From: Euzebya sp.
GTDB taxonomy: Bacteria; Actinomycetota; Nitriliruptoria; Euzebyales; Euzebyaceae
DNA: 64,000 nucleotides
Direction of reading: 5' to 3'
Assembly (NCBI RefSeq): GCF_964222135.1
Contig: NZ_CAXQBR010000065.1
Span: 1-64,000 of the forward strand
The position numbers were made by a program, and so were the translations under genes. Of the stretch, positions 14,651 through 31,584 are shown piece by piece. Under the pieces are notes generated by a model. It did no database searches. It saw nothing but the letters and a program-made list of their open reading frames with translations, and had not been told where the DNA came from. The first letter of the stretch is position 1, and each line of letters begins with the position of its first letter.

Positions 14651-14745
14651 CGACTGGTCATGTCTGATGCCGCCTAATGGCCCTGACCTGCGCGTTTGCC
14701 ACCGACTGGTCACGTCTGGTGTCGCCTGCTCACGTGTGGTTTCGC
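14651..14745 (+). repeat. Three imperfect direct repeats beside attL
   Basis: The pattern CTGGTCAYGTCTGRTGYCGC occurs at 14654 and 14706, with a weaker third copy at 14726 (17 of 20 positions matching the second). Position just inside attL suggests arm-type integrase sites or excisionase sites (inference). Confidence 0.55.
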
Positions 14746-14770
14746 GTGGCTCGGTGACAACGCGGCTACA

Positions 14771-15442: not shown

Positions 15443-15452
15443 GCGGGGGAAG

Positions 15453-16957: not shown

Positions 16958-17229
16958 CGCCTGAGGACATCCAGGCCGCCATGACGACGCTCGCCGAACT
17001 CATCGGCCACACCGTCGCCCGCGAGCTCCGTGGCGACGTGCAACGCCTGCTGGTGCCTGCGGAGAACGACGTGCTCGAGGGCATCGAGGACATCGCGACC
17101 TACCTGACCCTGTCGCCGGCACACGTCGCACGGCACCTCGGGTCCACGATCCCAGCCCGCAAGGTCGGCCGCTCCTGGCTCGCCTCGAAGGCCGCACTCA
17201 CCGCGTGGCTGGCCGGCCGGGACCCCTAG
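16954..17229 (+). CDS. HTH/excisionase-like DNA-binding protein A
   Basis: 91 aa, GTG overlapping the upstream stop. N-terminal helices, then a winged-HTH half: IATYLTLSPAHVARHLGSTI followed by the wing-like PARKVGRSWLASK. It is a clear paralogue of 17480-17752, with the shared block GSTIPxRKVGxxWLASKxA. Likely regulates excision or transcription in the element (inference). Confidence 0.6.
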   Translation: MTPEDIQAAMTTLAELIGHTVARELRGDVQRLLVPAENDVLEGIEDIATYLTLSPAHVARHLGSTIPARKVGRSWLASKAALTAWLAGRDP

Positions 17230-17240
17230 GGTCCGGTCGC

Positions 17241-17483
17241 ATGATCGAACTCACAACCAGCACTCGCGCCGTCGACGTCCGTCCGTACTGGGGCCACCCC
17301 CAGGTAGCCGACTACATCGGCGGCGTCTCCACCGACACCGTCCGGAACCTGGTCCTGGCCGGTTACCTCGACGGCCTCCGCCTCCCCGGAGTCAAGCGCA
17401 ACGTGGTGACCGCCGAGTCTCTCGACCGGTACCTCGCCAGGGCCCGCGAGACCGCGGAGCTCACCCGGATGGTCTCGCAGTGA
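17241..17483 (+). CDS. Excisionase-like (HTH_17) small protein
   Basis: 80 aa with a MerR/excisionase-type fold: HPQVADYIGGVSTDTVRNLV then GLRLPGVKRNVVTAESLDRY. The ATG is 8 nt downstream of TAGGGT (17227-17232), so it may also be made from a leaderless transcript. Middle gene of three tandem HTH genes. Confidence 0.6.
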   Translation: MIELTTSTRAVDVRPYWGHPQVADYIGGVSTDTVRNLVLAGYLDGLRLPGVKRNVVTAESLDRYLARARETAELTRMVSQ

Positions 17484-17752
17484 CCTTGCAGGACTCGCAC
17501 CCGGCCACAGCCGACTTCGCCAGCCTGGTCGGCCGCGCCGTCGCCGACGAACTCCGCGACGCCGTCGCCTCCGTCCTCACGCCAGTGGAGCACGACGTCC
17601 TCGCGGGCGTGGAGGCCATCGCCGTGTACTGCGGGCTGTCCGAGAGATTCGTCCGCGACCACATGGGCTCGACCATCCCGGGTCGGAAGGTCGGTACGAA
17701 GTGGCTCGCGTCGAAGGTCGCGATCACCGCCTGGCTGGCCCGCCCAACCTAA
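17480..17752 (+). CDS. HTH/excisionase-like DNA-binding protein B
   Basis: 90 aa, GTGA overlap with the previous gene. Paralogous to protein A: AVYCGLSERFVRDHMGSTIP then GRKVGTKWLASKVAITAWL. Two copies flanking an unrelated HTH gene imply duplication and divergent target sites (inference). Its end overlaps the convergent toxin gene by 4 bp. Confidence 0.6.
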   Translation: MTLQDSHPATADFASLVGRAVADELRDAVASVLTPVEHDVLAGVEAIAVYCGLSERFVRDHMGSTIPGRKVGTKWLASKVAITAWLARPT

Positions 17753-18162
17753 TCCGGGGGCTCGAGACCCTCGTCGGGCACGGGCTCGACGTGTCCCTTG
17801 AGTGATCCGGCGAGAGCTCCTACGGAGTAGGTTCCCTGGGCCACCTCAACGACGAGGTCAGCGAACTCGTCCTGATCGATGGTCATGCGGTAGCCGCATC
17901 GCCTGTAGAAGGCGACGCACGCGACCAGGGCCGTGCGCTTGTTGCCGTCGAGGAATGCGTGGCTGCGTGCGATGGCGTGGAGTGTGGCCGCGGCCTGGTC
18001 GTGGACCGTCTGGAACACAAGTTCCCCGAAGGCACTCGATGCCGGCCTAGCCAGCGCGCTCTCGAGTAGTGGTCGGTCACGGAGCCGGCCAGGGCCGATG
18101 ATGGCCTCGTTGATCTGGAGGACCTCGTCCACGCTGAGGAACGGCCAGGGCGGTCCGTTCAC
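17749..18162 (-). CDS. doc: Doc-family toxin (Fic fold)
   Basis: 137 aa with the Fic/Doc core HAFLDGNKRTALVAC (HxFxDGNKR). Doc kinases inactivate EF-Tu by phosphorylation. N-terminal LSVDEVLQINEAI and GRLRDRPLLESALARP are typical Doc motifs. The GTG start overlaps the antitoxin stop (GTGA). Probably stabilises the element or acts against phage. Confidence 0.88.
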   Translation of the reverse strand: MNGPPWPFLSVDEVLQINEAIIGPGRLRDRPLLESALARPASSAFGELVFQTVHDQAAATLHAIARSHAFLDGNKRTALVACVAFYRRCGYRMTIDQDEFADLVVEVAQGTYSVGALAGSLKGHVEPVPDEGLEPPD

Positions 18163-18386
18163 TCGTCGGCCAGGCGATCGAGGGCGGCCCGGTACTGGTC
18201 CTTGGCGTCGCTGACCAGCTGATCGAACTCTTCACGGCGACCGGGGCCCGCGAGGAAGTCACGGAGCGCCCGGCGGACGACGTCGTTGGCCGACGTGTTC
18301 GTGATCGAGGCGAACCGCTGCAGAGCGACGTGCTCCTCAGGTGTGAGGCGGACGAGGACCTGCTTCGACGTCGTGCTGGTAGCCAT
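18159..18386 (-). CDS. Ribbon-helix-helix antitoxin of the Doc module
   Basis: 75 aa. The N-terminus SKQVLVRLTPEEHVALQRFA is a ribbon-helix-helix DNA-binding motif, and the C-terminal acidic helix (EEFDQLVSDAKDQYRAAL) would wrap the toxin. It lies upstream of and overlaps doc. Palindromes in its promoter suit autoregulation. Confidence 0.8.
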   Translation of the reverse strand: MATSTTSKQVLVRLTPEEHVALQRFASITNTSANDVVRRALRDFLAGPGRREEFDQLVSDAKDQYRAALDRLADE

Positions 18387-18433
18387 GCGGCTATACTATC
18401 ACTGATATCATCATCTGAGGGAGGGCTGAACCC
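18387..18433. promoter_or_regulatory. TA / sce7725 divergent operator
   Basis: An AT-rich island in GC-rich DNA. TATCACTGATA (18397-18407) is a perfect palindrome and overlaps a second one, TGATATCA (18403-18410). Minus-strand TAGTAT can serve as the antitoxin -10. Probable binding site for the ribbon-helix-helix antitoxin (inference). Confidence 0.5.
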
Positions 18434-19480
18434 ATGAACCGCGACGACCTGCACTACGTGCCGATGCTGCGGGGCAAGCGCGCTGAACTCAGCGCCCTTT
18501 CCACCTCGGGTCACCTGACCACGATGACCCCGCTGGTCGAGCTGCAACCCATCGAGGGTGAGGTCCCGTCCACGGTTGTCGCCAAGCGCGTCAACGACAT
18601 CCTGCAGGCCTGGTACCGGCCCCTGTTCCTCGACGTCCAGGGGGCCTTCGACGACAGCGACGTGGACCTGGCCGACGGCTACAACCTCGTCCGCCGTGCG
18701 GCCCAGTCGATCGCTGAGGACCTGCCCGTCCCTGAGCCGATCCCGGTAGTCGACATCGCGTCACCCGACGGGTTCCTGGCCGCCGTCCGGGTGGCGCTGA
18801 GCGAGGATGCCGGTCCGGACGAGGTCTGCATCCGCCTGCGCGCCGATCACGTCGAGCGGCCGGTCCAACTGCGCAACCGTCTCGAGACCCTGGTGCACAC
18901 CTTGGGGGCTACGCCCGAGCAGGTGCACCTGGTCCTGGACCTGGAGAGCACGGTCAACGTCGCCTTCGCGGAGATGTTGACCATGGTGGTCCCTGCTGAG
19001 GAGTGGGGCGGCTACACCCTGGCCTGGGGCGCCTTCCCGACACAGCTGGGCTCAGAGGAGGAGCAGGTCCACGGCCGGCACGACTGGACGGGCTGGGTCG
19101 ACATCCACGATGCCCTGCGGATGGACAACTACCGCGCCCCAGGGTTCGGTGACTACTCGATCGTGGCCGCGAGCCCACCCCCATCGGTGCCGCGTGCCCC
19201 GAACCCGAACCTGCGTGTCACCCGTCATCTCGACTGGCTCGTCATGCGGGAACGGCGGACCGCCCTCGAGGGCAACGAGGCGATCTACCGGGTCGCCCAG
19301 CGTCTCGTCGGGCACGTCGATGAGGGTCTCTCTGCCGGTGACAGCTGGGTCATCGAGCACGCCCGCGGAGACGGCACGACTGGGAACGCGACAACATGGA
19401 TCACAGTCGGGCACCAGCGGCACTTCGCGTTCGTCACCGCACAGCTAGCCAGCCGCGGCGGTTCTTCAGTACCCCTGTGA
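18434..19480 (+). CDS. Beta-family / sce7725-like protein
   Basis: 348 aa. The start YVPMLRGKRAELSALS and TPLVELQPIEGEVPS match the 'beta' protein/sce7725 family first seen in phages and mobile islands. The family pairs with sce7726 proteins, and its role is unestablished. Family proteins have a TIM-barrel-like pattern, and repeated beta-alpha units are visible here (LFLDVQGAF, VHLVLDLES, YTLAWGAFP). It is convergent with and overlaps the sce7726-like gene by 47 bp. Confidence 0.7.
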   Translation: MNRDDLHYVPMLRGKRAELSALSTSGHLTTMTPLVELQPIEGEVPSTVVAKRVNDILQAWYRPLFLDVQGAFDDSDVDLADGYNLVRRAAQSIAEDLPVPEPIPVVDIASPDGFLAAVRVALSEDAGPDEVCIRLRADHVERPVQLRNRLETLVHTLGATPEQVHLVLDLESTVNVAFAEMLTMVVPAEEWGGYTLAWGAFPTQLGSEEEQVHGRHDWTGWVDIHDALRMDNYRAPGFGDYSIVAASPPPSVPRAPNPNLRVTRHLDWLVMRERRTALEGNEAIYRVAQRLVGHVDEGLSAGDSWVIEHARGDGTTGNATTWITVGHQRHFAFVTAQLASRGGSSVPL

Positions 19481-20075
19481 CCAGTGGCGAGAGCTCAGGG
19501 AGGTCGTAGACGTCGGCCAGCCGGCGCCACAGCACCCTCCGCGGCTTGCTGCGCACTCCAGTCACGCCCGCCAGGTCCAGCAGGCTCAGGCACTCGTCAC
19601 GCCACAGGAGTTGGGCGACCCACACGGACTCCTGATCGGGGTTCTCCGTTGCGGAGCGGACCTCGGCCAGGTCGACATGGACGCCGTCGCCGGTGGCTTC
19701 CCAGACGCCCCACCATGGCGGGACGACGTCCATGGCCTGGTCAAGGTGTCGAGGCGTGCACACGATCGTCATGCGGTCGACCACACGGCCGTAGGCCTGG
19801 ACCTGACCGTCGAGGCGGGCGAGGGTGTCCCGGTCGCTCTTGATCTCGTACCCCTCGAGGTGGCCGTTCAGCCGGGCTGCATCGAGGCGTGCGGTGCCGC
19901 CGCAGACCGGCATCTCGAACACGACGCGGTCGCCGTCGCTCAGCTGCTCGTCGAGGCGGCTGTGCAGCGCGGCGCGGATCGGCGGGTCGCTGAGCCGGGT
20001 CATGGCGCGCTCATCGTAGAGGGTGACACCCACAGAGCGCGTAGCGTCACCGGGAGGTAGCTGTGCGCTACTCAT
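19434..20075 (-). CDS. sce7726-family protein
   Basis: 213 aa. Conserved block DPPIRAALHSRLDEQL, followed by a nuclease-like core: LNGHLEGYEIKSDRDTLARL (E-x-K, reminiscent of PD-(D/E)xK folds), then QVQAYGRVVDRMTIVC. ATG 20075 overlaps the upstream stop (ATGA). An internal ATG at 20003 fits the usual family N-terminus. It is the last gene of the long minus-strand operon. A nuclease role is inference from the ExK motif. Confidence 0.7.
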   Translation of the reverse strand: MSSAQLPPGDATRSVGVTLYDERAMTRLSDPPIRAALHSRLDEQLSDGDRVVFEMPVCGGTARLDAARLNGHLEGYEIKSDRDTLARLDGQVQAYGRVVDRMTIVCTPRHLDQAMDVVPPWWGVWEATGDGVHVDLAEVRSATENPDQESVWVAQLLWRDECLSLLDLAGVTGVRSKPRRVLWRRLADVYDLPELSPLVTGVLKNRRGWLAVR

Positions 20076-20362
20076 GGGAACGGGATGACCCACGCGGAGT
20101 CGAGGTCGAAGCTGCCACCGATCGTCACGACCAGGCACGGCGTGTTCGCGGCGGGCGGGGCCGGACGGTCGTGGATGTGCCCTCCGGATCCGTCGTCGGT
20201 CTCGGCGGTAGCCGGCGAGGCGGGACGCAGGTAGCGGGCGGGCCCGCGGACACGGTCGGGCTGGTCGGCCAGCACGTAGTGGCACATGCCGTCGGTGGCG
20301 GCCGTCTTGATCCAGCCGGGCCGGAGTTCGGTGACCGAGGGCAGGCCGAGTGCGACTCGCAT
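20072..20362 (-). CDS. Small hypothetical protein downstream of tape measure
   Basis: 96 aa. N-terminal beta-like segment (VTELRPGWIKTAATDGMCHY), low-complexity Pro/Ala middle, C-terminal hydrophobic strand. Coupled by overlap to the sce7726 gene. Position after the tape-measure gene suggests a tail-associated or cargo role. Not recognised. Confidence 0.5.
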   Translation of the reverse strand: MRVALGLPSVTELRPGWIKTAATDGMCHYVLADQPDRVRGPARYLRPASPATAETDDGSGGHIHDRPAPPAANTPCLVVTIGGSFDLDSAWVIPFP

Positions 20363-20367
20363 GCCGG

Positions 20368-22344
20368 TCAGTTGCCCCTCGTGTTGTTGATCTCGATGCC
20401 GCGCTGCACCGCTTCGACCAGCTCGCGCTCGGACTCGCGGAACATGCGGAGCGCGTCCTCGCGGGTCATGTTGACGCCGAGGCGGTAGGTGGGCGCGACG
20501 GTCACCGTGGCAGTGGTGCCCTGGAAGGTGCCGGTCCCGGCGCCCACCGGACGGAAGCTGCCGGCGGCGACCGGGCTACCGCTGACCGCCGCGGCGGCGC
20601 GGGACCCGTACAGGTCCTCGACCAGGCCGACCGGTCCCGGGCTGCCGCCGCGCCCCAGCATGAGGTCGCCCTGGCTGATCGTCGGCATGCCCATGGCCTC
20701 GCGGGCCTGGTTGACCGACGCCAGCGCGTGCGCCTCATCGGGCGTCGTGGCGGCCCGGTCGACGGCTTCGCCGAGCTCGTCGGACAGGCCGAGGAAGCTG
20801 GTGGCCACGCCGGTACCGGCGGCGAGGAGGCCGGCGACGCCGGGGTTGCGTCCGAGGAAGCGGGCGAGGTTGCCGAGGGCGCCGAGGAGGCCGCGTCCGC
20901 CGCCGGTGCCGATGGCGGTGCGGACCGCGCCGACGCCGCCGGCGACGTTGCGGAAGGCGCCGGCCAGCCGGCTGATGCTGCGGATGGCCGACCCGGCGAT
21001 GAGGGTGGTCATGAGCGCTTCGGCGTAGGGGGCGAGCCGTTCGGCGTTGTCCGCCGCCCAGCCGAGCGCGTCGCCGAGGGCGGTCAGGGTGCCGCCCGCG
21101 ATCGGGCCCAGGGTCTCCTCTGCGCCCTGCCAGGCGGGGACGAGGATGTCGCGCCAGATGACGCCGATGTTCTCCGACGCCTCCCAGATGTCGTCCAGCA
21201 GCCCGGCGGCGCCGGCGCCGAACATGCCCTCGATGGTCTGCACGGTCCCCTGGCGGGTCCCGAGCTCACCGATGTTCGTCCGCAGGTCCTGCACCAGGTC
21301 GATGGCGCCGTTCAAGAACCCGCCGAACCGGGTGCCGAACACCTCTTCGATCTGCTCGTCGAACCCGGTCGTGTCGACCCGGCCGTTGCGGATCGTCCGG
21401 AACAGCCGGACCACGTCCTGCGCCCAGCCGCGGGTGCGCTCCTGCAGCGACGGGAGGTTGTCGTTCAGGTCCAACAGTACCCCGCGGAGGCCGCGCGTCA
21501 GCTCCGGGGTGATCTCCTGCACCGCAGGGAGCAGGGCCTCGCCCAGCTCGACGCGGATGTCGCGGAACACCCCGAGCAGGCTGCGCTGCTGGTTGGCGTA
21601 CCCCTCAGCGGTGCGGGCCAGGTCACCCTCGGCCGCACCGAGGTTGGCGAGGATGAACCGCTGACGCAGCAGGACCTTCTCCTGCTCGGTCATCTCCTCG
21701 GTCGTGGCCGAGATGCCCTCCGCGGCGGCGAAGGCGTTGAGGGAGGCGTCGGACAGGAAGATCCCAAACCGTCGGAGCGGCTCGGCCTCACCGGACAGGC
21801 CCGACCGGAGCGCGAGGAACGTGTCCTCCGGCGACTCGTTGTTGAACGAGGCGAGGTCGAGGCCGGCCTGGGCGAGCGCGGTGGAGAAGCCGGGCAGGTC
21901 GGACTGGGCGACACCGACGGCCTGGCCGAACACCCCGAACCCGGCGGTGGCGTCCTGCAGCTCCTGGGTGGCGATGTGGACGTTGCCCTGCACGCCCTGC
22001 GACCAGGCGTTGACCTGGGCGACGCCCTGGGGGCCGAACACGGTGTTGAACCGCGACTCGACCTCCTGGGCGTCCGACGCCATGTTGACGAGCGCCAGCC
22101 CGCCGGCGGCGGCCGCGCCGGTGAGGACGCCGACGCCGACCGCGGCGGTGCGGGCGACCGAGCCGACGAGGCTGATGCTGCCCCGCGCTCCTGACGCCAG
22201 CGTGCCGAGGGTGGAGAACTGCCGGCCCGTGCCGCCGGCGGTGCGGCCGAGCCGGCCGATGTCACCCTCGACGTCGCGGATGCCGCGGGAGAAGGGAGCG
22301 CGGTCCTTCAGGGTGAGCTTGGCGCCGACCTCTTCGACTGCCAT
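20368..22344 (-). CDS. Phage tail tape-measure protein
   Basis: 658 aa. N-terminus LTLKDRAPFSRGIRDVEGDI is the usual tape-measure coiled-coil start, followed by a Gly/Ala hydrophobic stretch (~45-80) and the PhageMin_Tail/TIGR01760-type core: MASDAQEVESRFNTVFGPQG, QELQDATAGFGVFGQAVG, EDTFLALRSGLSGEAEPLRR, NQQRSLLGVFRDIRVELGEA. Such proteins set tail length and enter the cell envelope during infection. The ATG overlaps the upstream stop by 1 bp. It is the only clear virion-type gene in the element. Confidence 0.85.
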   Translation of the reverse strand: MAVEEVGAKLTLKDRAPFSRGIRDVEGDIGRLGRTAGGTGRQFSTLGTLASGARGSISLVGSVARTAAVGVGVLTGAAAAGGLALVNMASDAQEVESRFNTVFGPQGVAQVNAWSQGVQGNVHIATQELQDATAGFGVFGQAVGVAQSDLPGFSTALAQAGLDLASFNNESPEDTFLALRSGLSGEAEPLRRFGIFLSDASLNAFAAAEGISATTEEMTEQEKVLLRQRFILANLGAAEGDLARTAEGYANQQRSLLGVFRDIRVELGEALLPAVQEITPELTRGLRGVLLDLNDNLPSLQERTRGWAQDVVRLFRTIRNGRVDTTGFDEQIEEVFGTRFGGFLNGAIDLVQDLRTNIGELGTRQGTVQTIEGMFGAGAAGLLDDIWEASENIGVIWRDILVPAWQGAEETLGPIAGGTLTALGDALGWAADNAERLAPYAEALMTTLIAGSAIRSISRLAGAFRNVAGGVGAVRTAIGTGGGRGLLGALGNLARFLGRNPGVAGLLAAGTGVATSFLGLSDELGEAVDRAATTPDEAHALASVNQAREAMGMPTISQGDLMLGRGGSPGPVGLVEDLYGSRAAAAVSGSPVAAGSFRPVGAGTGTFQGTTATVTVAPTYRLGVNMTREDALRMFRESERELVEAVQRGIEINNTRGN

Positions 22345-22736
22345 CAGCTGGCCTCCTGGTCCTTGAGGAGCCCGCAGAGCTCCAGCAGCTCGACGGCGCG
22401 GGCGTACTCGTCCGGGTTCATCGCCGCGAGCGCGTCGATGATCTGGCCACTCGGCGTCCAGTGGCGTCCGAGCAGGTCGTCGAGCTCGTGCCACCACTCG
22501 CCGCGCAGGCGCGCCTGGGCGGCGTCGGTCTGCAGCGTGGCCACGGCCAGCGCCCAGTCCTCCCAGCTGGCAGCCTCCACCGCGGCCCGCTGGGCGGCCG
22601 TCAGCCGCTGGCCGTCGATGGTCCGCCACCGGCTTGCCGGCCGGCGGATCCGCCGGCCACGTCGGTGGCTCTTGGCGACGTTGAACACGGTGTCGAGGTC
22701 GACCGTCGAGAGCACCTCGGCCCTGGTCGTGGTCAT
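22344..22736 (-). CDS. Putative tail-assembly-chaperone-position protein
   Basis: 130 aa, mostly helical (FNVAKSHRRGRRIRRPASRW, then LDDLLGRHWTPSGQIIDALA and YARAVELLELCGLL). It sits directly upstream of the tape-measure gene, where phages carry tail assembly chaperones. Sequence alone does not prove this. No slippery frameshift site was found. Confidence 0.5.
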   Translation of the reverse strand: MTTTRAEVLSTVDLDTVFNVAKSHRRGRRIRRPASRWRTIDGQRLTAAQRAAVEAASWEDWALAVATLQTDAAQARLRGEWWHELDDLLGRHWTPSGQIIDALAAMNPDEYARAVELLELCGLLKDQEAS

Positions 22737-23098
22737 GCCGTGCGGCCTCCTCGGCGGTAGACGTCGGTGAGGAGGTGTCGCAGGTAGCTGATCGTGTCGT
22801 CGAGCGCGACGTCGGTGCCGGTGAGGCGGTGGGTGAGCGTCCGGCCGGGATTGCCGGCGGGGAAGGTCGCGGTCGCGGTCATGGTGACGTCGTCGACGTC
22901 GGTGGCGAGGTGGGCGAGCAGCTCGAGGTCGACCCAGCCGTCCTCGGTGGGATGCCCGTACTCACAGTCGTCGCACAGGACCGGTTGGACGGTGACGGTC
23001 CAGCCGTCGGGGTCCTGGCCGGTGTGCAGGACGGTGGTGTCGTCGAGCTGGGCGAGCAGGTCGACCAGCACGACCAGGCGGGCGTCGACGGCGGTCAC
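22733..23098 (-). CDS. Small phage-like hypothetical protein
   Basis: 121 aa, GTG overlapping the HNH gene stop (GTGA). Acidic alpha/beta protein (LVVLVDLLAQLDDTTVLHTG, then VCDDCEYGHPTEDGWVDL-like CxxC) ending in LRHLLTDVYRRGGRTA. Possibly a tail-terminator-like or immunity protein, but unassigned. Confidence 0.5.
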   Translation of the reverse strand: MTAVDARLVVLVDLLAQLDDTTVLHTGQDPDGWTVTVQPVLCDDCEYGHPTEDGWVDLELLAHLATDVDDVTMTATATFPAGNPGRTLTHRLTGTDVALDDTISYLRHLLTDVYRRGGRTA

Positions 23099-23460
23099 GC
23101 GGCGGGCCTTCCGAACCCGGAGTCCTCGCGGACGGTCTTGGCGGAGTGGCAGGACTGGCAGCGGGGCTGCAGGTTCTCGTGGCGGTCCGATCCGCCATCC
23201 CGCCGGCGGATGATGTGGTCCGCGATCGTCGCCTCGCCCCCGCAGACGCCGGTGTGGCCGGGACGGCGGCGACTGGCCGGGCAGCCCGGGCAGGTGCAGA
23301 TCGGGTGGAGCTTGAGGACCTGAGCGCGGATCCGCCGCCACTTCCGGTCGTTGTAGCGCCACCGGTCCGCCGGCCGCCGGTCAGGCAGCCGGTGGGCGTC
23401 ACAGCGCGCCGTCCCCCGTTCGACCAGGGTCGGGCAGCCCGGCTCGGCGCAGACCTTCAC
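23095..23460 (-). CDS. HNH endonuclease
   Basis: 121 aa from GTG 23460. Two zinc-type pairs (VCAEPGCPTLVERG and CTCPGCPASRR), then the HNH core: ATIADHIIRRRDGG (DHI), ENLQPRCQSCHSAKT (N and the final His). It resembles the small HNH nucleases beside terminase genes in long-tailed phages that assist DNA packaging. No terminase is visible here, so its role may differ. Confidence 0.8.
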   Translation of the reverse strand: MKVCAEPGCPTLVERGTARCDAHRLPDRRPADRWRYNDRKWRRIRAQVLKLHPICTCPGCPASRRRPGHTGVCGGEATIADHIIRRRDGGSDRHENLQPRCQSCHSAKTVREDSGFGRPAA

Positions 23461-23615
23461 CGGTCGCCCGCGATCGCCGGGGAGGCCGGTCCCCGAGCCG
23501 CTGCAGAGGACGGCCCGGGGCGGCCGGTCGGGCTGGCATCGCGCCAGCCCGGGCGGAGGCGTCCCGGCAGGCTCTCGACCGCAGGCGAGAACAGCTGGAG
23601 GGCGATGGTGGCCAT
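23457..23615 (-). CDS. Possible 52-aa small protein
   Basis: ATG 23615 opens a 52-codon frame (begins MATIALQLFSPAVESLPG) whose TGA overlaps the HNH GTG start, continuing the chain of overlaps in this operon. High third-position GC. No family recognised. Confidence 0.35.
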   Translation of the reverse strand: MATIALQLFSPAVESLPGRLRPGWRDASPTGRPGPSSAAARGPASPAIAGDR

Positions 23616-23620
23616 GGGGG

Positions 23621-24049
23621 TCAGGCGGCCGGGTGGTGGGGGAGGCCGACGGCCTCACGCATCCGGGCGGCGGCGTCGCTGACCTGCTGGTCGACCGGCA
23701 CCGGCGCGGGGGCGAGGTGGGGCCGCTGGGTGGTGAGGGCGACCAGGTCGTCACGCAACCGCGCCTGTGCGGCGGCGTCGACGGTGCCGTACTCGTTGAC
23801 GTAGGAGGCCACGTCGAGATGGGCGGCGGCGTCGGTCGGGTCGACGAGGTGCCAGCCGGCGATCTTGGCGACCACCGGGTGCATCCCGTCGTCGGCCGGC
23901 GACGGCGGGGGCGCGTCAGCCGGCGGGTACTCCGGCCGGGTGCCGGCGGGCAGCCCGAAGGCGGCCGGGTCGGGCCGGCGGGTCCTGGTCTCGTCCGCCA
24001 TCCGACAGGCGGCGGCGAAGACGTGGAACGGGTGCGGTGTGGCGGGCAC
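23621..24049 (-). CDS. Hypothetical element protein
   Basis: 142 aa, GTG start. Helical N-terminus (PFHVFAAACRMADETRT), Pro-rich linker, then a folded part with VVAKIAGWHLVDPTDAAAHL and DDLVALTTQRPHL. Part of the overlapping minus-strand operon. Not recognised. Confidence 0.5.
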   Translation of the reverse strand: MPATPHPFHVFAAACRMADETRTRRPDPAAFGLPAGTRPEYPPADAPPPSPADDGMHPVVAKIAGWHLVDPTDAAAHLDVASYVNEYGTVDAAAQARLRDDLVALTTQRPHLAPAPVPVDQQVSDAAARMREAVGLPHHPAA

Positions 24050-24061
24050 GGTCAGGTCCTC

Positions 24062-24769
24062 TCAGGCGGGCACGTGCTGGCCGAAGGACGGGTGGGTGAG
24101 GTGACGGGCGAGCCAGCGGGGCGGCACGGTCCCTGCGGGCAGGGTCAACCGATCGGTCCACGTCTCTGAGCGGGCGGCGATGAACCGTCCGGCCACCGTC
24201 GGGTCGTACTTGGGTACCGCGCCGATGGCAGAGACCCGTGCCTGGGAGGCGAGCGGCGGCGGGGCGGGACGGGACCCGTGGTCCGCCGGATCGGCGCCGA
24301 GCTGGACCAGGGCCGCCTCGATCGCGTCGACCTCGGCCAGGGCACGGTCGTGCGCGAAGCTGGCCGCCTTCAGCGTCTCGTGCGCCCGATCCCGGGCGGT
24401 GACCGCCGTGGCGTACGCCAGCTCGATCTCCGCCGCCTCGATGCGCGACAGCGACGGTGGGATGCGGCCGGCGAGGGGCGTGCAGTCGGGGTCGTCACGG
24501 AGCGGCTCGTACACCGCCCGCGCCTCAGCCTCGACGGCGGCTGCCTCGTCGACGGCCGCCCAGGCCGCCGCGAGGTCGCCAGCGAGCACGTCGACGCGTG
24601 CCGCGGTCACCTCGCCGGGCAGCTCATCGGCCCGGGTCAGCAGCCGCATCCACTCCGCGGCGTCACCGACCCGGCGGGCCTCCGTCGTGGCGGCGGGCAG
24701 GTCGGCGAGCTCGGCCTCGAGGTCCGCCAGCCGGTCCTCAGCGGTGCGGGTTGTGGTTGCGGCGGCCAC
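24062..24769 (-). CDS. Coiled-coil hypothetical protein
   Basis: 235 aa. The first ~180 residues are strongly helical, with coiled-coil periodicity (EDRLADLEAELADLPAATTE and SRIEAAEIELAYATAVTARD). The C-terminus YDPTVAGRFIAARSETWTDR forms a small separate domain. Could be a scaffold- or tail-associated protein (inference from position upstream of the tape measure). Confidence 0.5.
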   Translation of the reverse strand: MAAATTTRTAEDRLADLEAELADLPAATTEARRVGDAAEWMRLLTRADELPGEVTAARVDVLAGDLAAAWAAVDEAAAVEAEARAVYEPLRDDPDCTPLAGRIPPSLSRIEAAEIELAYATAVTARDRAHETLKAASFAHDRALAEVDAIEAALVQLGADPADHGSRPAPPPLASQARVSAIGAVPKYDPTVAGRFIAARSETWTDRLTLPAGTVPPRWLARHLTHPSFGQHVPA

Positions 24770-24771
24770 GG

Positions 24772-24981
24772 TCAGCTCACCTCGGCGATCATGTTGCCGT
24801 CGAGCAGGTGTGCGATGCACTCCTCGGTGACGTCAGCGGGCAGCACGTCACCGCGACGGAACCCCGTCATGGGTGGCGAGGCGGCCGGGTTGGCCTGCCA
24901 GCGTGGCTGGCTGGCACGGGACACCTGCACGTAGGCGGCGGTCACGCGGTACGTCGGGCGGGCGGGCGCGTCGGTGGTCAT
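24772..24981 (-). CDS. Small hypothetical protein
   Basis: 69 aa, ATGA overlap with the previous gene. Basic N-terminal half, then FRRGDVLPADVTEECIAHLL and GNMIAEVS, a pattern seen in small phage proteins of unknown role. Confidence 0.5.
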   Translation of the reverse strand: MTTDAPARPTYRVTAAYVQVSRASQPRWQANPAASPPMTGFRRGDVLPADVTEECIAHLLDGNMIAEVS

Positions 24982-25388
24982 GAAGCCTCCGGGTAGTAGC
25001 TGGCGAACTCGGCGTCGTCGTCGGCCTGGCGCTGCTCGAAGCTGCGCGGGTCGGTGTCGGTCTCGTGCAGCCACCGCTGCATCCGCTGCCAGGCCTCGCC
25101 GAGCCGCGGATGGTCGATCTGGGCGTCGGGCACGTCGGCGTACAGCTCGACCAGCTCGAACACCTTCGCCCGGTCGGGCTCGGCCGCGGCGGCGTGCCGC
25201 AGACCGAACGGCAGCCGCATCAGCACCTGCGGGTCCACCCCGGACGCCGTCGTGGCCGGCAGGTCCGCCCGGCCGCCCTCGAACAGCCGCGGCGGCGGCG
25301 CCACGGCGGCCACCTCGGCGTACCGCTCGGGATGCAGGCGGGCCAACAGCGCGGCGTAGGGGTTGGGGGCGTACGGGTCAACGGTCAT
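24978..25388 (-). CDS. Hypothetical element protein
   Basis: 136 aa, ATGA overlap. Helical (NPYAALLARLHPERYAEVAA, then RAKVFELVELYADVPDAQID, EAWQRMQRWLHETDTDP). No motif recognised. Member of the same coupled operon. Confidence 0.5.
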   Translation of the reverse strand: MTVDPYAPNPYAALLARLHPERYAEVAAVAPPPRLFEGGRADLPATTASGVDPQVLMRLPFGLRHAAAAEPDRAKVFELVELYADVPDAQIDHPRLGEAWQRMQRWLHETDTDPRSFEQRQADDDAEFASYYPEAS

Positions 25389-25504
25389 GCGGGCACCTCT
25401 CGGCTGAGGTCCTGCTCGAGGCGGGCGAGGACGACCAGGTCCAGATCGGCGCGGGACAGCCCGACGGCCTCGAGGTACGCGTCCAGCGGAGTGGTGGTGG
25501 TCAT
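25385..25504 (-). CDS. 39-aa small protein
   Basis: A short acidic peptide (PLDAYLEAVGLSRADLDLVV) with ATGA overlaps at both ends, which is the main support. Function unknown. Confidence 0.45.
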   Translation of the reverse strand: MTTTTPLDAYLEAVGLSRADLDLVVLARLEQDLSREVPA

Positions 25505-25893
25505 GCCGCGGTCCCCTTCGCCCGCTCGATCGCGGCGTCCAGATCGGCAGGGTCGAAGCGAACCGCCCCGCCGAGCCGGACCGCCGGCAGCGACCCGTCC
25601 CGAACCCGGCGGCGCAGCGTCGACTCCGACAAGCCGGTCCGCGCCTCGGCGTCCGCGTAGGTCAGCAGTGTGGTCACACCGGCACCGTGCACCGCCGGCG
25701 GCGGCAGCGCCGGAACTTGACCGCTCCTGGCAGCAGATGACCGCAGTTGACCGATCACGTCGGCCAGACCGGCCGGATCCGGCAGCCCCGCGTCGACCAG
25801 CCGGCGCCGGTAGGCGGTGATCGCCGCGATCAGGTGGGCCGCCAGCGCGGGGGCGTGCTGGCCGGCGAGGAGCTCGAGGTCCAGGCGGCTCAC
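25501..25893 (-). CDS. MerR/excisionase-type HTH protein
   Basis: 130 aa. The N-terminal half is helical. The C-terminal ~55 residues are an HTH_17/excisionase domain: YADAEARTGLSESTLRRRVR, then GSLPAVRLGGAVRFDPADLD. GTG start overlaps the upstream stop. Likely an operon regulator rather than the excisionase, because another xis-like gene lies beside the integrase. Confidence 0.65.
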   Translation of the reverse strand: MSRLDLELLAGQHAPALAAHLIAAITAYRRRLVDAGLPDPAGLADVIGQLRSSAARSGQVPALPPPAVHGAGVTTLLTYADAEARTGLSESTLRRRVRDGSLPAVRLGGAVRFDPADLDAAIERAKGTAA

Positions 25894-26135
25894 GACGCAC
25901 CTGCCCGGCCAGGAACCACAGCAGCGGGGCGGGATGTCGGAACCTGTACGCGCATCTCCACTCCCACCCCGGCGGCATACGACCCCTCCCCCCGGAGGGG
26001 GGTCCCCCCACCCCTCTCGGCGGGCGCGGGTGTGGAGTCGGTGAACTGGCGGCACCAGCAGCGCCAGGCCGCGCACGGCTGTCCGAGAGCGGCGATCCAG
26101 TCGTGCTCGACGATGGTGTGGCCGCAAGTGCACAC
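25890..26135 (-). CDS. Zinc-ribbon-like small protein
   Basis: About 81 aa from GTG 26135: VCTCGHTIVEHDWIA then PCAAWRCWCRQF gives a CxCGH...C..CWC pattern suited to one metal site. Its stop overlaps the next GTG. The same frame stays open to an ATG at 26456 that overlaps the initiator gene stop, so a 188-aa form is possible. The extra part, however, lies antisense to a better-looking plus-strand gene. Confidence 0.45.
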   Translation of the reverse strand: MCTCGHTIVEHDWIAALGQPCAAWRCWCRQFTDSTPAPAERGGGTPLRGEGSYAAGVGVEMRVQVPTSRPAAVVPGRAGAS

Positions 26136-26198
26136 GGCCGGTCGCGGTGCCGTGGTGTGATCCGGGCGATCGGAAGCGTCGTGAGGAAGGACCTCGGC

Positions 26199-26378
26199 AT
26201 GTCGATCCTCTGGCTGTTCGCCGTCGCCCTGGGGCTGATCGTGGAGTACCTGCTGATCCGCGGGGCGGTGAAGGACGCACTCGGCCGGGCCCTGTATGAC
26301 AACCGGGAGTTCCTGCTGAGCCTGCTGCGCGAGGCCAACACTCTGGATGGCGAGCCGGGCGCGTCGGACCGGGAGTAG
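26199..26378 (+). CDS. Small single-pass membrane protein
   Basis: 59 aa, ATG with AAGGA 9 nt upstream. One transmembrane helix (SILWLFAVALGLIVEYLLI) followed by a charged helix. Codon use matches real genes here (nearly all codons end in G/C). It is the only plus-strand gene inside the minus-strand operon. Possible holin-like or superinfection-exclusion-type peptide (inference). Confidence 0.6.
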   Translation: MSILWLFAVALGLIVEYLLIRGAVKDALGRALYDNREFLLSLLREANTLDGEPGASDRE

Positions 26379-26452
26379 GCGTGCCGCTGACCGGTCATGG
26401 GTTTCATGCCCTGAGGGCGTCGGGGCGTCCGTGGTGACCGCCGGTTCGGTGG

Positions 26453-27493
26453 TCATGTGGTGCGCTCCTTCGGGTTGTTGCGGACCTTCGTGGCGTAGTG
26501 GAAGAGGCTGAGCGGGTCGGCGTTGTGGGGTGGGGTGAGACCGGCGCCGGACTCGACGGCGACGCGGATCGACTCGAGCGTGGCGATCGAGCCGGCTTCC
26601 TTGACGTGGCGGCCAAGGAGCGCCCAGCCCTCGGACGGCATGGGCTGGTCGGTGACGTACTCGAGGTAGTCGCCGATGACGACGCCGGCGCGGTTGCGGC
26701 CGCGGCGCTGCTGCTCGGGGGTGTCGGCGGGGAGCTCTCGGTGGAGGACGCCGATCAGCCAGCGGGCGACGTCGGAGCGGTTCTCGGTGTCGGGCGGCTC
26801 GTGGTCGTGGCGGATCGCCCACTCGGCGAGGGTTCGGCTGTAGGTCTGCCCGGTCCGGTTCCGCATCGGCAGCTCGTCGCCGCCGGCGGGGTCCTGGTCG
26901 GCGACGTCCTGGCGGTCGTCGTCGTCCGCGCCGTCGGCGCGATGGTCTTCTCGAGGGTCTTCTCGGTACTCCTCGGGTGGGGGGGTAGGGGTACCCCCCG
27001 GTTCCGGGGGGTGGGGGCACCCCCCGGTCGGTGGCTGTGCGACCCCCCGGGCGTCTGCCCGGGGGGCCAGGCCGCCCCCCTGGAGCGACAGGGGGGTCGT
27101 GTCGCCCCCCTGTCCGGGGTCAGACAGAGGGGTCAGGTCGCCCCCCTGTCCGGCTGGTGACAGGGGGGTGGTGTCGCCCCCCTGTGGGGGGAGGCCCACG
27201 ATGGAGCGGACCCGGCGGTGGCCACGGCGGGAGTGGCCGGGCTGGTAGCTGATCAGGCCGGCGTCGGCGAGGTCGTGGAGGGCGCGTCGGAGGTCGCGAC
27301 GGTCGATGCCGGTGAGCTGGCCGAGGCGGGCCTGGGAGACGGTGTCGGTGAGCCGGGACCAGGTCGCGGTCTCGTGCAGGATCGCGAGCAGCACCCGGTA
27401 CTGCCGTGGGGGCAGGGTCCGGGATGCGGCCGTGGCCATCACGGTGCGCATGGCGGCGCCCACCTCGGCGTAGGAGTCACGCGGTGGGGTCAT
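26453..27493 (-). CDS. Phage-type replication initiator (O-like), origin-bearing
   Basis: 346 aa. The N-terminal winged-helix (~10-90) resembles phage replication-protein-O N-domains: LPPRQYRVLLAILHETATWS, LGQLTGIDRRDLRRALHDLA, DAGLISYQPG. A repetitive linker (~100-200) carries GGDxTPLSxxGQ repeats. The C-terminal domain includes SRTLAEWAIRHDHEPP, RGRNRAGVVIGDYLEYVTDQ and LGRHVKEAGSIATLESI. The linker DNA is a hairpin array, recalling lambda O, whose gene contains the origin. ATG 27493 is chosen, and a GTG lies at 27508. Confidence 0.65.
   Translation of the reverse strand: MTPPRDSYAEVGAAMRTVMATAASRTLPPRQYRVLLAILHETATWSRLTDTVSQARLGQLTGIDRRDLRRALHDLADAGLISYQPGHSRRGHRRVRSIVGLPPQGGDTTPLSPAGQGGDLTPLSDPGQGGDTTPLSLQGGGLAPRADARGVAQPPTGGCPHPPEPGGTPTPPPEEYREDPREDHRADGADDDDRQDVADQDPAGGDELPMRNRTGQTYSRTLAEWAIRHDHEPPDTENRSDVARWLIGVLHRELPADTPEQQRRGRNRAGVVIGDYLEYVTDQPMPSEGWALLGRHVKEAGSIATLESIRVAVESGAGLTPPHNADPLSLFHYATKVRNNPKERTT
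26978..27186. repeat. Hairpin/G-tract array inside the initiator gene (candidate replication origin)
   Basis: Six inverted repeats with C6/G6 arms. Three 28-bp units at 27087-27114, 27123-27150 and 27159-27186 lie exactly 36 bp apart, each GACAGGGGGG / CCCCCCTGTC with an 8-nt loop ending GTCG (the second has one arm mismatch). Others: 26979-26998, 27004-27027 and 27043-27066 (10-bp arms, 4-nt loop). The 36-bp period keeps the reading frame. Confidence 0.75.
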
Positions 27494-27539
27494 GCGGGCC
27501 TCGGCCACGAACTCGGCGGTGGCATCGGGGTGTCAGCGG

Positions 27540-27830
27540 TCACGCCGCGGCGGGCTGGGCCCAGTGCTGGCGACCGTCGGCGTAGCCGCTGCTGTAGGCG
27601 GTGCGGAGCTTGGCCAGGTGCGTCAGCCACGCGGCCCGGACGTCGTCGGCCTGGTCGGTGCCGACGCCGGGCGCCGGCCGGGGCGTGGCGGGGTCGGGCA
27701 GCGTCTGGAGGAACCGGCGGGCGCGGTCGCCCATCTCGATCCGGTCCGGGAACGCGGCCGCGACGTCCTGACCGGCCCGGCGGGCGGCGGTGAGGGCGGG
27801 CAGGCCGGCGGTGTCGATCAGCCGCGTCAC
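27540..27830 (-). CDS. Small hypothetical protein
   Basis: 96 aa, GTGA overlap with the upstream gene. Helical, with MGDRARRFLQTLPDPATP and AAWLTHLAKLRTAYSSGYAD. Early-operon position before the initiator. Not recognised. Confidence 0.5.
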   Translation of the reverse strand: MTRLIDTAGLPALTAARRAGQDVAAAFPDRIEMGDRARRFLQTLPDPATPRPAPGVGTDQADDVRAAWLTHLAKLRTAYSSGYADGRQHWAQPAAA

Positions 27831-28192
27831 GGCTGCACCTCCCGGCCGATCCAGAGCCGGCAGACTCCGCGCCTCGCAGGGCGTCGGCTCACGGTGTAGC
27901 CGACAGGGCGGATGGTGCCCTCGCACTTGAGAGTGAGGAACACCCCGCCCATGGCCCACGGGCCGCCGGACAGCGTCGGCTGGTCCATGTCGAGACCCGC
28001 CTCGAGCGCGACCTCGCGAAGGTCGTCAGCGGTCCAGGGCGTCCGCCGGGTTCGGGCCAACTGGCGGCCGAGCTCGAGGAGTTGCGCTCGATCCGGAACG
28101 GACAGGGCCGCTAGGGCGTCGGCCGCCCGCTCGTCACGGACCGCAGCGGCAGACACTTCAACGGACGCGGTGTCAGCGCTACGCTGGCGCAT
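27827..28192 (-). CDS. Small hypothetical early protein
   Basis: 121 aa, ATG 28192 overlapping the previous gene by 14 bp. N-terminal helices with SVPDRAQLLELGRQLARTRR and a winged-helix-like WTADDLREVALEAGLDMDQP, then a beta part (GGVFLTLKCEGTIRPVGYTV). Possibly DNA-binding (inference). Confidence 0.5.
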   Translation of the reverse strand: MRQRSADTASVEVSAAAVRDERAADALAALSVPDRAQLLELGRQLARTRRTPWTADDLREVALEAGLDMDQPTLSGGPWAMGGVFLTLKCEGTIRPVGYTVSRRPARRGVCRLWIGREVQP

Positions 28193-28451
28193 GTCGACCC
28201 TCCTCGCCGGCCAGGTGAGTAGACGACTTCTCGCCCTCGCCGGTACCAGCGGCGGGGGCGTCGTCATGGACGGGGACACCCAGCAGGTGCAGCAGCCGAT
28301 GGGTCGGAACGACGAGCCGGCGGCCGATTCGGAGGGTCGGGATGTCGCCGGCGCGGGCGGCGTCGTAGGCGCTGTTGCGGCCGACGCCGAGGAGTTCGGC
28401 GGCCTCGGGCACGGTGATGGTGGCGCGTCCGCGGAGATCGGTCAGCGTCAT
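28179..28451 (-). CDS. Excisionase-family HTH protein
   Basis: 90 aa. TVPEAAELLGVGRNSAYDAA then GDIPTLRIGRRLVVPTHRLL is a textbook HTH_17 domain. The acidic C-terminal tail overlaps the next gene. The start overlaps the XRE gene stop (TGATG). Likely early regulator. Confidence 0.7.
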   Translation of the reverse strand: MTLTDLRGRATITVPEAAELLGVGRNSAYDAARAGDIPTLRIGRRLVVPTHRLLHLLGVPVHDDAPAAGTGEGEKSSTHLAGEEGRHAPA

Positions 28452-28699
28452 CACGCCGCGGTCACCTCCCGGAGGTCTGCCAGTAGGTCGACGTAGGCGA
28501 CCAGGTTCGTGGCGTTGGGCTGGGTCTTTCCGGTCTCCCAGGCCCACACAGCTTGCGGCGTCACCTGGATGGCTCGGGCGATCTCGGCGATGGACGCGCC
28601 GGCGGCCTCACGGATCCGCCGGCACTCCGCAGGAGGCGGAAGGGACTGACGTGCTCGGGTGCGCTTCATCAGCGCCGTTCGGGGTGTCATGAAGTGCAC
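28451..28699 (-). CDS. XRE-family transcriptional regulator
   Basis: About 82 aa (an internal ATG at 28669 is possible). Cro/CI-type HTH: CRRIREAAGASIAEIARAIQ, then VTPQAVWAWETGKTQPNATN. Too short for a self-cleaving CI repressor. It heads the minus-strand operon and is divergent from 28804-29520, with a candidate operator between. Confidence 0.75.
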   Translation of the reverse strand: MHFMTPRTALMKRTRARQSLPPPAECRRIREAAGASIAEIARAIQVTPQAVWAWETGKTQPNATNLVAYVDLLADLREVTAA

Positions 28700-28803
28700 G
28701 GTAAGGCCATGTCACCGCAGTGCCAACGTCCCAACATTGCCGTTCTTCTGTCCGGCAGGCAATGTAATTGACGCAGCATTACCTATGTGCGTATGGTCAC
28801 TGT
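28700..28803. promoter_or_regulatory. Regulatory switch region with operator and leaderless promoter
   Basis: Perfect inverted repeat ACATTGCC (28734-28741) / GGCAATGT (28758-28765), 16-bp spacer. Plus-strand promoter TTGACG (28768-28773), 18-bp spacer, TATGGT (28792-28797), ends 6 nt before ATG 28804, so transcription would begin at or near the A of the start codon. The repeat abuts the -35, a good place for repression by the XRE protein. Confidence 0.65.
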
Positions 28804-29520
28804 ATGGCCCGGTTTCAGTCCCAGCGCAGCGTCCCCGAGTTCACGCACCGCGAGGAGCACAGGGACGGCTACACCCACGTGCAGCTCCACTACGCGCTCC
28901 CGGGCGGCGTCGAACTGGGGATCCGCTATCGGAAGGAGTGGGGCGTGGAGGCCTACCCCCACCAGGAGTCGACGACCTTCCTGCCCCGGTTCTTCACCGC
29001 GGCCGTCGTCGACCCTGCGATCCCGTACGCCGTCAACGTTGAACTCTCATGGGACGGATCCGAGGTGGAGTGCACGGCCCTCAGCGTGCGGCCGCGCACC
29101 ATCCACCACGCGCCCGTGGCGTCTTCCGAAGACGAGGTGTACGACGACGGTGGGCCGATCTCGTCTGAGGGCCTCCGCCGAGTCCCGGTGAGCAGGGTCG
29201 TGAAGCTGGCCATCGAGGCGGCGACCCACACCGCCGAGAAGATCGACGGGGAGATGGTGCACGCCTTCTTCGCGACTCCGGACCTGCTGGCCACCTACGT
29301 CGCGGAAGGTCCGCGGACAGCCCGCGGCGTCGCCTTGGGCGATGACCACTACCGGGAGGTTGCCCAGGTGTACCTCGAGGCTGTGAAGGTCGGCGTGCCA
29401 CCCCGCCGCCAGGTGGCGGCGTGGGGATCCTGTTCGGAGTCGACGGCGTCGAAGTGGATTCGAGGCGCCCGCGACCGCGGGCACCTTCCAGCAACCACTC
29501 AGGGTCGAGCGTCTTCGTGA
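28804..29520 (+). CDS. HTH-containing regulator typical of actinobacterial integrative elements
   Basis: 238 aa. The first ~150 residues are beta-rich and unassigned (YTHVQLHYALPGGVELGIRY). The C-terminal part is an HTH: YREVAQVYLEAVKVGVPPRR, CSESTASKWIRGARDRGHLP. Similar proteins accompany XRE genes and tyrosine recombinases in actinobacteria (recalled, not checked). Likely leaderless mRNA. Its 3' end overlaps the convergent xis-like gene. Confidence 0.6.
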   Translation: MARFQSQRSVPEFTHREEHRDGYTHVQLHYALPGGVELGIRYRKEWGVEAYPHQESTTFLPRFFTAAVVDPAIPYAVNVELSWDGSEVECTALSVRPRTIHHAPVASSEDEVYDDGGPISSEGLRRVPVSRVVKLAIEAATHTAEKIDGEMVHAFFATPDLLATYVAEGPRTARGVALGDDHYREVAQVYLEAVKVGVPPRRQVAAWGSCSESTASKWIRGARDRGHLPATTQGRASS

Positions 29521-29723
29521 TCGGCGGCGTGCAACCAGCCCTGCAGGGGGACGCGGGGGATCAGGATCCGTCGTCCGGCGCGCCGGTTGGGCAGCTCGCC
29601 GCGGTGGATCATTCTGTAGACGACGCCGGGGGAGACGCGCAGGACCAGGGCGACCTCCTCGACGGTGAGGACGTCGGGGGCCGCGGCCAGGGAGAGAGGT
29701 TCGGTCGACATGATCGTGCCCAT
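29499..29723 (-). CDS. Excisionase (Xis-like)
   Basis: 74 aa. VLTVEEVALVLRVSPGVVYR then GELPNRRAGRRILIPRVPLQ is the excisionase HTH_17 domain. ATG 29723 directly follows the upstream stop (TAGATG), and ATG 29711 is an alternative. Position next to the integrase supports a role in excision directionality. Confidence 0.75.
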   Translation of the reverse strand: MGTIMSTEPLSLAAAPDVLTVEEVALVLRVSPGVVYRMIHRGELPNRRAGRRILIPRVPLQGWLHAADHEDARP

Positions 29724-30065
29724 CTACGAGAGTGGCTCGTCGAAGCGGACCTCGGGGTCCATCATCAGTTCGTTGTCCGGGAACCAGGGGTCGTCCTGGC
29801 CCTTGAGCACGATCTTGCGGACCGCGACGTGGCTGAGGCCGACAGCACGGCCGATCTCCCGGAAGCTGCCGCCGACTCGGTGGGCGTAGACGATCCAACG
29901 ATCGCGTGTCTCGACGGCACGGTCGGCGATAGCCGCCAGCTGGGCAGCGTGGGAGGCGTGGCTTTCGAGCTCCTCGGCCAGCGCAGGAGGCAGCGTCATG
30001 CCATCGAGCCTAGAAGCCGTCGCCTGGCTCCGTTCCTCGCCGGGAGCACCTGCATGAGTCGTCAT
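29724..30065 (-). CDS. HTH regulator beside integrase
   Basis: 113 aa. Central helix-turn-helix GGSFREIGRAVGLSHVAVRK (sigma-region-4/Hin-like), preceded by a long helix (LAEELESHASHAAQLAAIAD). Its ATG lies at the edge of a perfect 38-bp palindrome, so it may control itself and the divergent integrase. An internal ATG at 29999 is possible. Confidence 0.6.
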   Translation of the reverse strand: MTTHAGAPGEERSQATASRLDGMTLPPALAEELESHASHAAQLAAIADRAVETRDRWIVYAHRVGGSFREIGRAVGLSHVAVRKIVLKGQDDPWFPDNELMMDPEVRFDEPLS

Positions 30066-30102
30066 GGTAACCACGTTACCACATGTGGTAACGTGGTTAC
30101 CA
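30065..30102. promoter_or_regulatory. Perfect 38-bp palindromic operator
   Basis: Each half is TGGTAACCACGTTACCACA, itself two inverted GGTAAC half-sites, giving four half-sites in all. It sits between the HTH gene (29724-30065) and the integrase gene (30149). No other copy was seen in the window. Confidence 0.85.
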
Positions 30103-30148
30103 CAGGGCTTCTGCTGAAGGCCCTCAGGCAGACAGGTGAACCACGACC

Positions 30149-31471
30149 ATGAGCATCTACAAGCGCGGCAAGACCTACACGATCTCCATCGAGTTGGGCC
30201 GCGACGCCAACGGCAAGCGCCTCCGCCGGTACCGCCACGGCTTCCGCACCGTCAAGGAAGCCGGCGAGGCGCTGGTGCTGTGGAAGGCCGAGCTGATAGG
30301 GGGACGATTCGTCGACCCGACGAAGACCACGGTCGCCACGTACCTCCAACAGCACTGGCTGCCCTACAAGAAGCCCGCGCTGCTCCGACAGGCCGAAGAG
30401 GCGGTGGTGACGCGAGAGATCGACCCCCTAACCGACGCACCCGAACCCCAAGGCGGCGAGGTGGCCGTCACCTCCTACTGGGCCTACGAGCGGGCGGTCC
30501 GGATCCACCTCGTCCCTGCTCTAGGTGGCGCGCTGCTCCAGCAGCTGCGCGGCCGCCAGGTCGAGGACATGCTCCGCGGGATGCAGGACCGGGGCCTGTC
30601 ACCCAAGACCATGCACAACGTGTTCGGCGTACTGCACCGGTCGCTCGAGGATGCCGTCCGCTGGGAACTGATCGGCCGGAACCCTTGCGACACCGTCATG
30701 ATGCCGAAGGTGCCCAAGACGCCCATCACCAGCTGGAGCCTCCCTGAGCTCCGTGCCTTTCTGGCTGCGGTCAGGGACCACGAGTACGCCGGCGCGTTCA
30801 TGCTGCTGATCTCCACGGGCATCCGGCGCGGTGAGTTGAGCGGCCTCACCTGGCCGTGCGTCGACCTGGACCGCGAAGAGATCAGGGTCCGGTGGACCTT
30901 GACCCGCGGCAAGGGAGGCAGGATCTGGAAGGGTCCCAAGACCAGAGGCGGTGGCCGGACGATCGCGCTCGACTCCATGACGGTGCAGGCGCTGAAGGTG
31001 TGGCACATCCGGCAGGCCGCCATGCGACTGGCGGCCGGTCCCGCATGGCAGGTGCACAACGCCGACGACTTCGGCCAGGCCCTTCCCGACGTGGTCTTCA
31101 CCCACGCGGATGGAACACAGGTTGCGCCCGAGCGGTGGCTGAAGTGGTTGACGGACATCTGCGAAGCCAATGGCATCCGCAAGATCAGCGTCCACGACGT
31201 GCGACACACCTACGCCACCCTGGCGCTCGAGGCCGCCACCTCGATGGCCGACATGAAGCAGCTGTCCGACCGCCTCGGCCACGCGACGATCTCCTTCACC
31301 CTGGACAAGTACGCTCACGCGCTCCCCGACAAGGACCGGAAGCTCGCCCAGGACATCGCCGACCTCTACCACGGCGACGGGACGGTGCTCGACTTCAAGG
31401 AGGCGAAGCGCCGCCGTGACGCCGGCGACGAACTCGAGGATGGCACCGTCGAGGGCAACGCAGAACGGTGA
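30149..31471 (+). CDS. int: Tyrosine-type site-specific integrase
   Basis: 440 aa. N-terminal arm-binding domain (~1-60, GKTYTISIELGRDANGKRLR), SAM-like core-binding domain (~90-190), catalytic domain (~200-420). Catalytic residues: Arg in TGIRRGELSGL, HxxR in HDVRHTYATL, His in GHATISFTL and Tyr in LDKYAHAL. It catalyses integration into tRNA-Pro, ending ~90 bp from the right att core. Confidence 0.95.
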   Translation: MSIYKRGKTYTISIELGRDANGKRLRRYRHGFRTVKEAGEALVLWKAELIGGRFVDPTKTTVATYLQQHWLPYKKPALLRQAEEAVVTREIDPLTDAPEPQGGEVAVTSYWAYERAVRIHLVPALGGALLQQLRGRQVEDMLRGMQDRGLSPKTMHNVFGVLHRSLEDAVRWELIGRNPCDTVMMPKVPKTPITSWSLPELRAFLAAVRDHEYAGAFMLLISTGIRRGELSGLTWPCVDLDREEIRVRWTLTRGKGGRIWKGPKTRGGGRTIALDSMTVQALKVWHIRQAAMRLAAGPAWQVHNADDFGQALPDVVFTHADGTQVAPERWLKWLTDICEANGIRKISVHDVRHTYATLALEAATSMADMKQLSDRLGHATISFTLDKYAHALPDKDRKLAQDIADLYHGDGTVLDFKEAKRRRDAGDELEDGTVEGNAER

Positions 31472-31560
31472 GAGCCTCACTCGGCTACAGGATGGTGACA
31501 TGAACCGCCCCGAGTCCCCGCTCTGCGACAAGTTTTCGCAGGTCAGGGGCTCGGGGCTTA

Positions 31561-31584
31561 AGTCGGGATGCAGGGATTTGAACC
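31561..31584. repeat. attR core (24-bp direct repeat, right copy)
   Basis: Identical to 14612-14635. Here the repeat forms the 3' acceptor strand and T-arm of an intact tRNA-Pro, so integration left the tRNA functional. Confidence 0.9.

Follow-up and report, generated by a model that had tools for sequence, protein, structure and literature searches.

A G-tract palindrome array inside an O-like initiator gene as a candidate replication origin of a Euzebya prophage-like element

The stretch of Euzebya sp. DNA analysed in this work (64,000 nucleotides, hereafter the window) carries an array of six palindromic iterons of the form G6-N8-C6 at 26978..27191. The array is probably a replication origin of the lambda type that belongs to a prophage-like element and is situated inside the element's own initiator gene. 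The palindromes are kept at the DNA level and are not a by-product of the encoded protein. The design of the array is the long-known layout of phage lambda in a new lineage and is not new in kind.

The initiator gene, its palindromes and the host element

The gene at 26453..27508 on the minus strand encodes an O-like replication initiator of 351 aa, with an N-terminal winged helix, a disordered linker and a helical C-terminus. Judged by sequence, it is a homologue of lambda O. Among the PHROG families annotated as replication initiation O-like, PHROG 678 (E 2.4e-8) and PHROG 345 (E 1.1e-6) were matched, and PHROG 277 was matched as well; the match to Pfam Phage_rep_O fell below the gathering score used as cut-off. 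When a four-sequence profile was compared by hhalign, residues 26-92 aligned to residues 40-106 of lambda O over 67 columns with 28% identity (E 7.6e-6, prob 84). The N-terminal winged-helix domain thus shows the homology to lambda O that marks an initiator of the lambda O type by both hhalign and PHROG, and the phage-O-like initiator proposed in the sequence-only reading was borne out. In the AlphaFold model only residues 11-90, the winged helix, reached a pLDDT of about 80-90, while the linker, residues 91-225, stayed below 50 and is predicted to be disordered. A fold search of the PDB with the initiator returned generic MarR/CodY-type winged helices alone, none of them below E 0.001.

The six inverted repeats span 26980-27182, five of them exact and one with a single mismatch; the array and its sites are given without strand. 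Three are extended to units of 28 bp. Site 3 (27087..27114, GACAGGGGGGTCGTGTCGCCCCCCTGTC) is the only perfect inverted repeat among these, site 2 (27123..27150) has one mismatch in an arm, GAGGGG, and site 1 (27159..27186) has its one mismatch at the outermost base. Beside them lie site 4 (GGGGGGCCAGGCCGCCCCCC, 27061..27080), site 5 (GGGGGGTGGGGGCACCCCCC, 27006..27025) and site 6 (GGGGGGTAGGGGTACCCCCC, 26980..26999). On the plus strand the G6 runs start at 26980, 27006, 27061, 27091, 27127 (the GAGGGG site) and 27163, and consecutive spacings are 26, 55, 30, 36 and 36 bp. In each of the six sites of the window the G and C runs are separated by 8 nt, and the G6/C6 arms are near perfect throughout, with variable site centres. 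The sequence-only reading had described three 28-bp units exactly 36 bp apart, with three more G6/C6 hairpins beside them, in the linker-coding part of the gene. The units indeed start at 27087, 27123 and 27159 and the additional G6-N8-C6 hairpins at 26980, 27006 and 27061; the array codes for approximately residues 104-176, within the predicted disordered segment 91-225.

Directly 3' of the array on the coding (minus) strand, a local GC minimum at 26940..26979 is a candidate strand-opening element, containing the direct repeat CGAGAAGACC(C/A)TCG. These 40 bp have 60% GC within a gene of 74% GC, and A prevails over T on the coding strand. For the window alone the dip is not significant (p 0.115). 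When 14 non-lambda genes were pooled, the dip adjoining the array gave p 7e-5, with genes picked after the fact for having arrays; most of the 14 have the minimum after the array, in the position of the AT-rich region of lambda. GC skew did not turn cleanly at the array.

The gene is carried by an integrated element of about 17 kb (14612..31584, given without strand), bounded by the 24-bp direct repeat AGTCGGGATGCAGGGATTTGAACC at 14612 and 31561, the right copy of which lies in a tRNA-Pro gene (31562-31636). An integrase (30149-31471) and a tape measure gene (20368-22629) were recognised, together with genes for an excisionase-like HTH protein and an HNH endonuclease, and several small HTH proteins are encoded near the array. 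Genes for a terminase large subunit, a portal or a capsid were not recognised among the ORFs scanned in the element, nor was a helicase or loader of the DnaB, DnaC or P-like kind among those scanned at 14.6-31.6 kb. We read the element as a decayed prophage or a satellite-like element. Among the ORFs scanned, a lambda-like P loader or helicase was thus not recognised beside its O-like gene; this lambda feature was not treated as defining, and in the phages sampled a helicase adjoins the initiator in some and not in others. The element also encodes a Doc-like toxin (17749-18162, minus strand; PHROG 577, E 1.5e-26). Between a divergent gene at 29724-30074 and the integrase lies a perfect 38-bp palindrome, TGGTAACCACGTTACCACATGTGGTAACGTGGTTACCA, at 30065-30102, which is composed of two smaller dyads and looks like a repressor operator pair.

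Maintenance of the palindromes in the window and in relatives

Codons were shuffled synonymously within the gene, so that protein and codon pool were kept, and the palindrome score was taken for the best 200 bp. The window gene scored 23 against 4.8±2.0 in shuffles, and none of 200 shuffles reached the observed value. The array is also the strongest palindrome cluster in the 64-kb window (next separate cluster, 12), and its ORF ranked first among 151 ORFs of at least 200 aa against synonymous shuffles (z 9.5). GGG makes up 8 of the 17 Gly codons in the array and 1 of 19 in the rest of the gene (Fisher p 0.006), and the sites are read in two reading frames, the codon phase of site 5 (27006) differing from that of the other five. 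The palindromes therefore go beyond what the protein needs, and since one DNA motif occurs in different reading frames, selection on the protein cannot account for the array. The pattern GGGGGGN8CCCCCC had no other copy in the 5.06-Mb genome, homopolymer contig ends excepted, so the array is not a dispersed repeat. Repeated inverted-repeat iterons under DNA-level selection in the linker-coding part, as in initiators of the lambda O type, are thus found here.

No close homologue of the protein was found in genome contigs, viral contigs, phages or plasmids. Relatives were obtained from a whole-genome search and a DNA-pattern scan, and the wider sample of initiators is a hand-assembled collection rather than a census. 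The two nearest relatives, L002 from the same genus and L003 from the same class, share about 30-37% identity with the window protein, and each has an array of this kind in the corresponding position. In L002, four sites of the AAGGGGGTCAATCGCCCCCCTT type have spacers of 7-8 nt and lie in two reading frames, so that the same DNA is translated as EGGQSPPF in one frame and as SRGSIAPLQ in another. The four sites of L003, such as GGGGGTCCCCGGACCCCC, all have 8-nt spacers and occupy all three frames. Palindrome scores were 12 against 2.5 in shuffles for L002 (0/200; p 0.005, the lowest value the test can give) and 11 against 3.8 for L003 (p 0.015). The L002 gene has a copy, L072, whose predicted protein is the same and which is located on an IMG/VR viral contig. 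The sequence-only reading had asked for repeats conserved beyond protein need, and the shuffles together with the same palindrome type in both nearest relatives agree with this. It had also named homologues with the same protein and no palindromes as a refuting case; the two nearest relatives do have them, but the more distant L004 has none, only short TGACCCCTC direct repeats.

Three HTH proteins found by DNA pattern only, L035, L064 and L115, show linker palindromes of the G-tract type. Of these, L035 clearly belongs to the replication initiators (PHROG 270, E 7.9e-33; shuffle p 0.005), L115 is weakly initiator-like (E 1.6e-5; shuffle p 0.095), and L064 had no PHROG match (shuffle p 0.08). 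Linker palindromes of other sequence occur in Pseudomonas phage JBD68 (GGTGCAACGGTTGCACC), in phages Purky and PFR1 (CTCGCGAG type) and in L149 (GCAGAATCTGC type). The same test showed no palindrome excess in the O-like genes of phages Kepler, RedFox, Asapag and PSonyx, and gave 4 against 1.2 (p 0.065) for the lambda O gene. Most matches of the DNA-pattern scan were chance or other palindromes. L005 and L007 were rejected as initiators, and several weak PHROG 678 matches turned out to be ordinary regulators.

Two kinds of cluster were recorded in other settings. In one genome of the phylum (G059), a G-run palindrome cluster beside a sequence like a tRNA 3' end is present in two copies about 2.5 kb apart (L194 1500-1550 and L210 1500-1550), with no connection to an initiator gene. 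On two related IMG/VR contigs (L030 1656-1735, L056 8684-8738), AGGGGGNNNNNNNCCCCCCT-type repeats form arrays, apparently outside an initiator gene.

Other readings of the array

Several small HTH proteins are encoded nearby, and initiators of such a kind can use the same sites for two purposes, so the palindromes could be operators or regulatory sites within the gene, serving autoregulation by the initiator or an HTH regulator of the element. We consider this unlikely, since the array sits where the lambda origin does, in the linker-coding part with a GC dip after it, and the element has a separate, obvious operator-like palindrome by divergent promoters, the one at 30065-30102. Once transcribed, any DNA palindrome yields a hairpin in the RNA as well, here a very stable one, which could act in translation, mRNA stability or attenuation. 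Such a role for the repeats appears very unlikely: both arms are near perfect in six sites whose centres vary, the constant 8-nt spacer suits a protein site of two half-sites better than a stem of free length, and lambda provides a precedent for an origin at the same place (PMC7466680).

Two explanations by repeat origin seem highly improbable. Three copies spaced at 36 bp point to tandem duplication, as expected if slippage had expanded a Gly/Pro linker of low complexity in a GC-rich genome, yet the synonymous shuffles, the switch of Gly codons and the differing frames in the window gene and its relatives contradict a mere by-product; on the shuffles, the codon switch and the multiple frames we also rejected an artefact of codon usage. 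A dispersed selfish palindrome of the REP/MITE-like kind, inserted in frame, has in its favour the general point that such elements can enter linkers without breaking the frame. It is contradicted for this genome by the lack of further G6-N8-C6 copies outside homopolymer contig ends, and when 396 genomes of the phylum were sampled, none of the 8 non-homopolymer cluster matches inspected lay in an initiator gene. The suggestion that the hairpins may form G-quadruplexes proved weak. One canonical G4 motif, at 26975-26991, touches the edge of the array, against 16 such motifs in the whole 64-kb window; clustered canonical motifs were absent, and a G-quadruplex array was rejected.

Comparison with known origins and proposed mechanism

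The iterons of lambda are imperfect 19-bp inverted repeats with G-tracts contacted by O (PMC7466680). Because the lambda iterons are themselves G-tract inverted repeats, the array is as expected of a lambda-type origin, with longer G/C arms. The sequence-only reading had regarded long palindromes in place of simple iterons as an unusual design, a view that does not hold against the lambda iterons and the linker palindromes of other O-like genes. Its placement of the origin inside the initiator gene, as in lambda, is supported by the linker-coding position and the GC minimum after the array, from which we infer origin use. The window and the lambda origin in gene O share an O-homologous N-terminal domain, repeated G-tract inverted-repeat sites in the linker-coding part and, less certainly, a less GC-rich, A-biased segment directly downstream on the coding strand. 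They differ in the number of sites (four in lambda, six in the window), in their sequence (ATCCCTCAAAACGAGGGA in lambda, against G6/C6 arms of up to 10 bp with an 8-nt spacer), in spacing (20-24 bp against 26-55 bp) and in the opening region (20% GC against 60%), and the window element has no recognised lambda P-like loader. Six iterons in gene O are also found in Stx phages P27 and 933W, which have a dimeric O protein (PMC7466680), but these differ in iteron sequence and have Escherichia hosts.

In JBD68, Purky, PFR1, Dardanus, L149 and L035 palindromes in the linker-coding part are likewise followed by a local GC minimum. Among the sampled O-like and HTH initiators the palindrome sequences differ by lineage; the G-tract type is common to the window, L002, L003, L035, L064 and L115. 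It is conceivable, and we offer it as a rather doubtful idea, that palindromes of G-runs and C-runs with a fixed spacer of 7-8 nt make up an iteron class of their own that recurs in GC-rich phages, with the window, L002, L003 and two HTH proteins, L035 and L064, as members. Winged-helix initiators would recognise such iterons through the G-tracts, and strand opening would be possible at an unusually GC-rich element, about 60%.

Dimer binding, unwinding, helicase recruitment and actual use of the origin at the array are proposed by analogy with lambda. Each G6-N8-C6 palindrome would be occupied by an initiator dimer, every subunit contacting one G6 half-site with its N-terminal winged helix, and the dimers on the six sites would come together in a nucleoprotein complex resembling the lambda O-some. 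The resulting strain could open the adjoining less GC-rich segment, 26940-26979, where the replicative helicase would be loaded after induction. Since neither a helicase nor a loader for one was recognised among the genes of the element, it is a guess that the C-terminal domain or host factors do the loading. With the sites located within the coding sequence, their translation product would be no more than a flexible, Gly/Pro-rich linker.

In mycobacterial prophages with repA an origin was suggested inside or just upstream of that gene, where repeats were not found (PMC7157519). No report of the array or of the G6-N8-C6 class was found in the literature searched, which was covered in part. The array offers a candidate origin open to testing, on a prophage-like element from a lineage without one in that literature, and it adds sequence support to the idea of an in-gene origin, raised and not settled for the mycobacterial repA prophages (PMC7157519). 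The signature itself, O-like linker palindromes kept against synonymous drift in several frames and followed by a GC dip, flags candidate phage origins from sequence alone.
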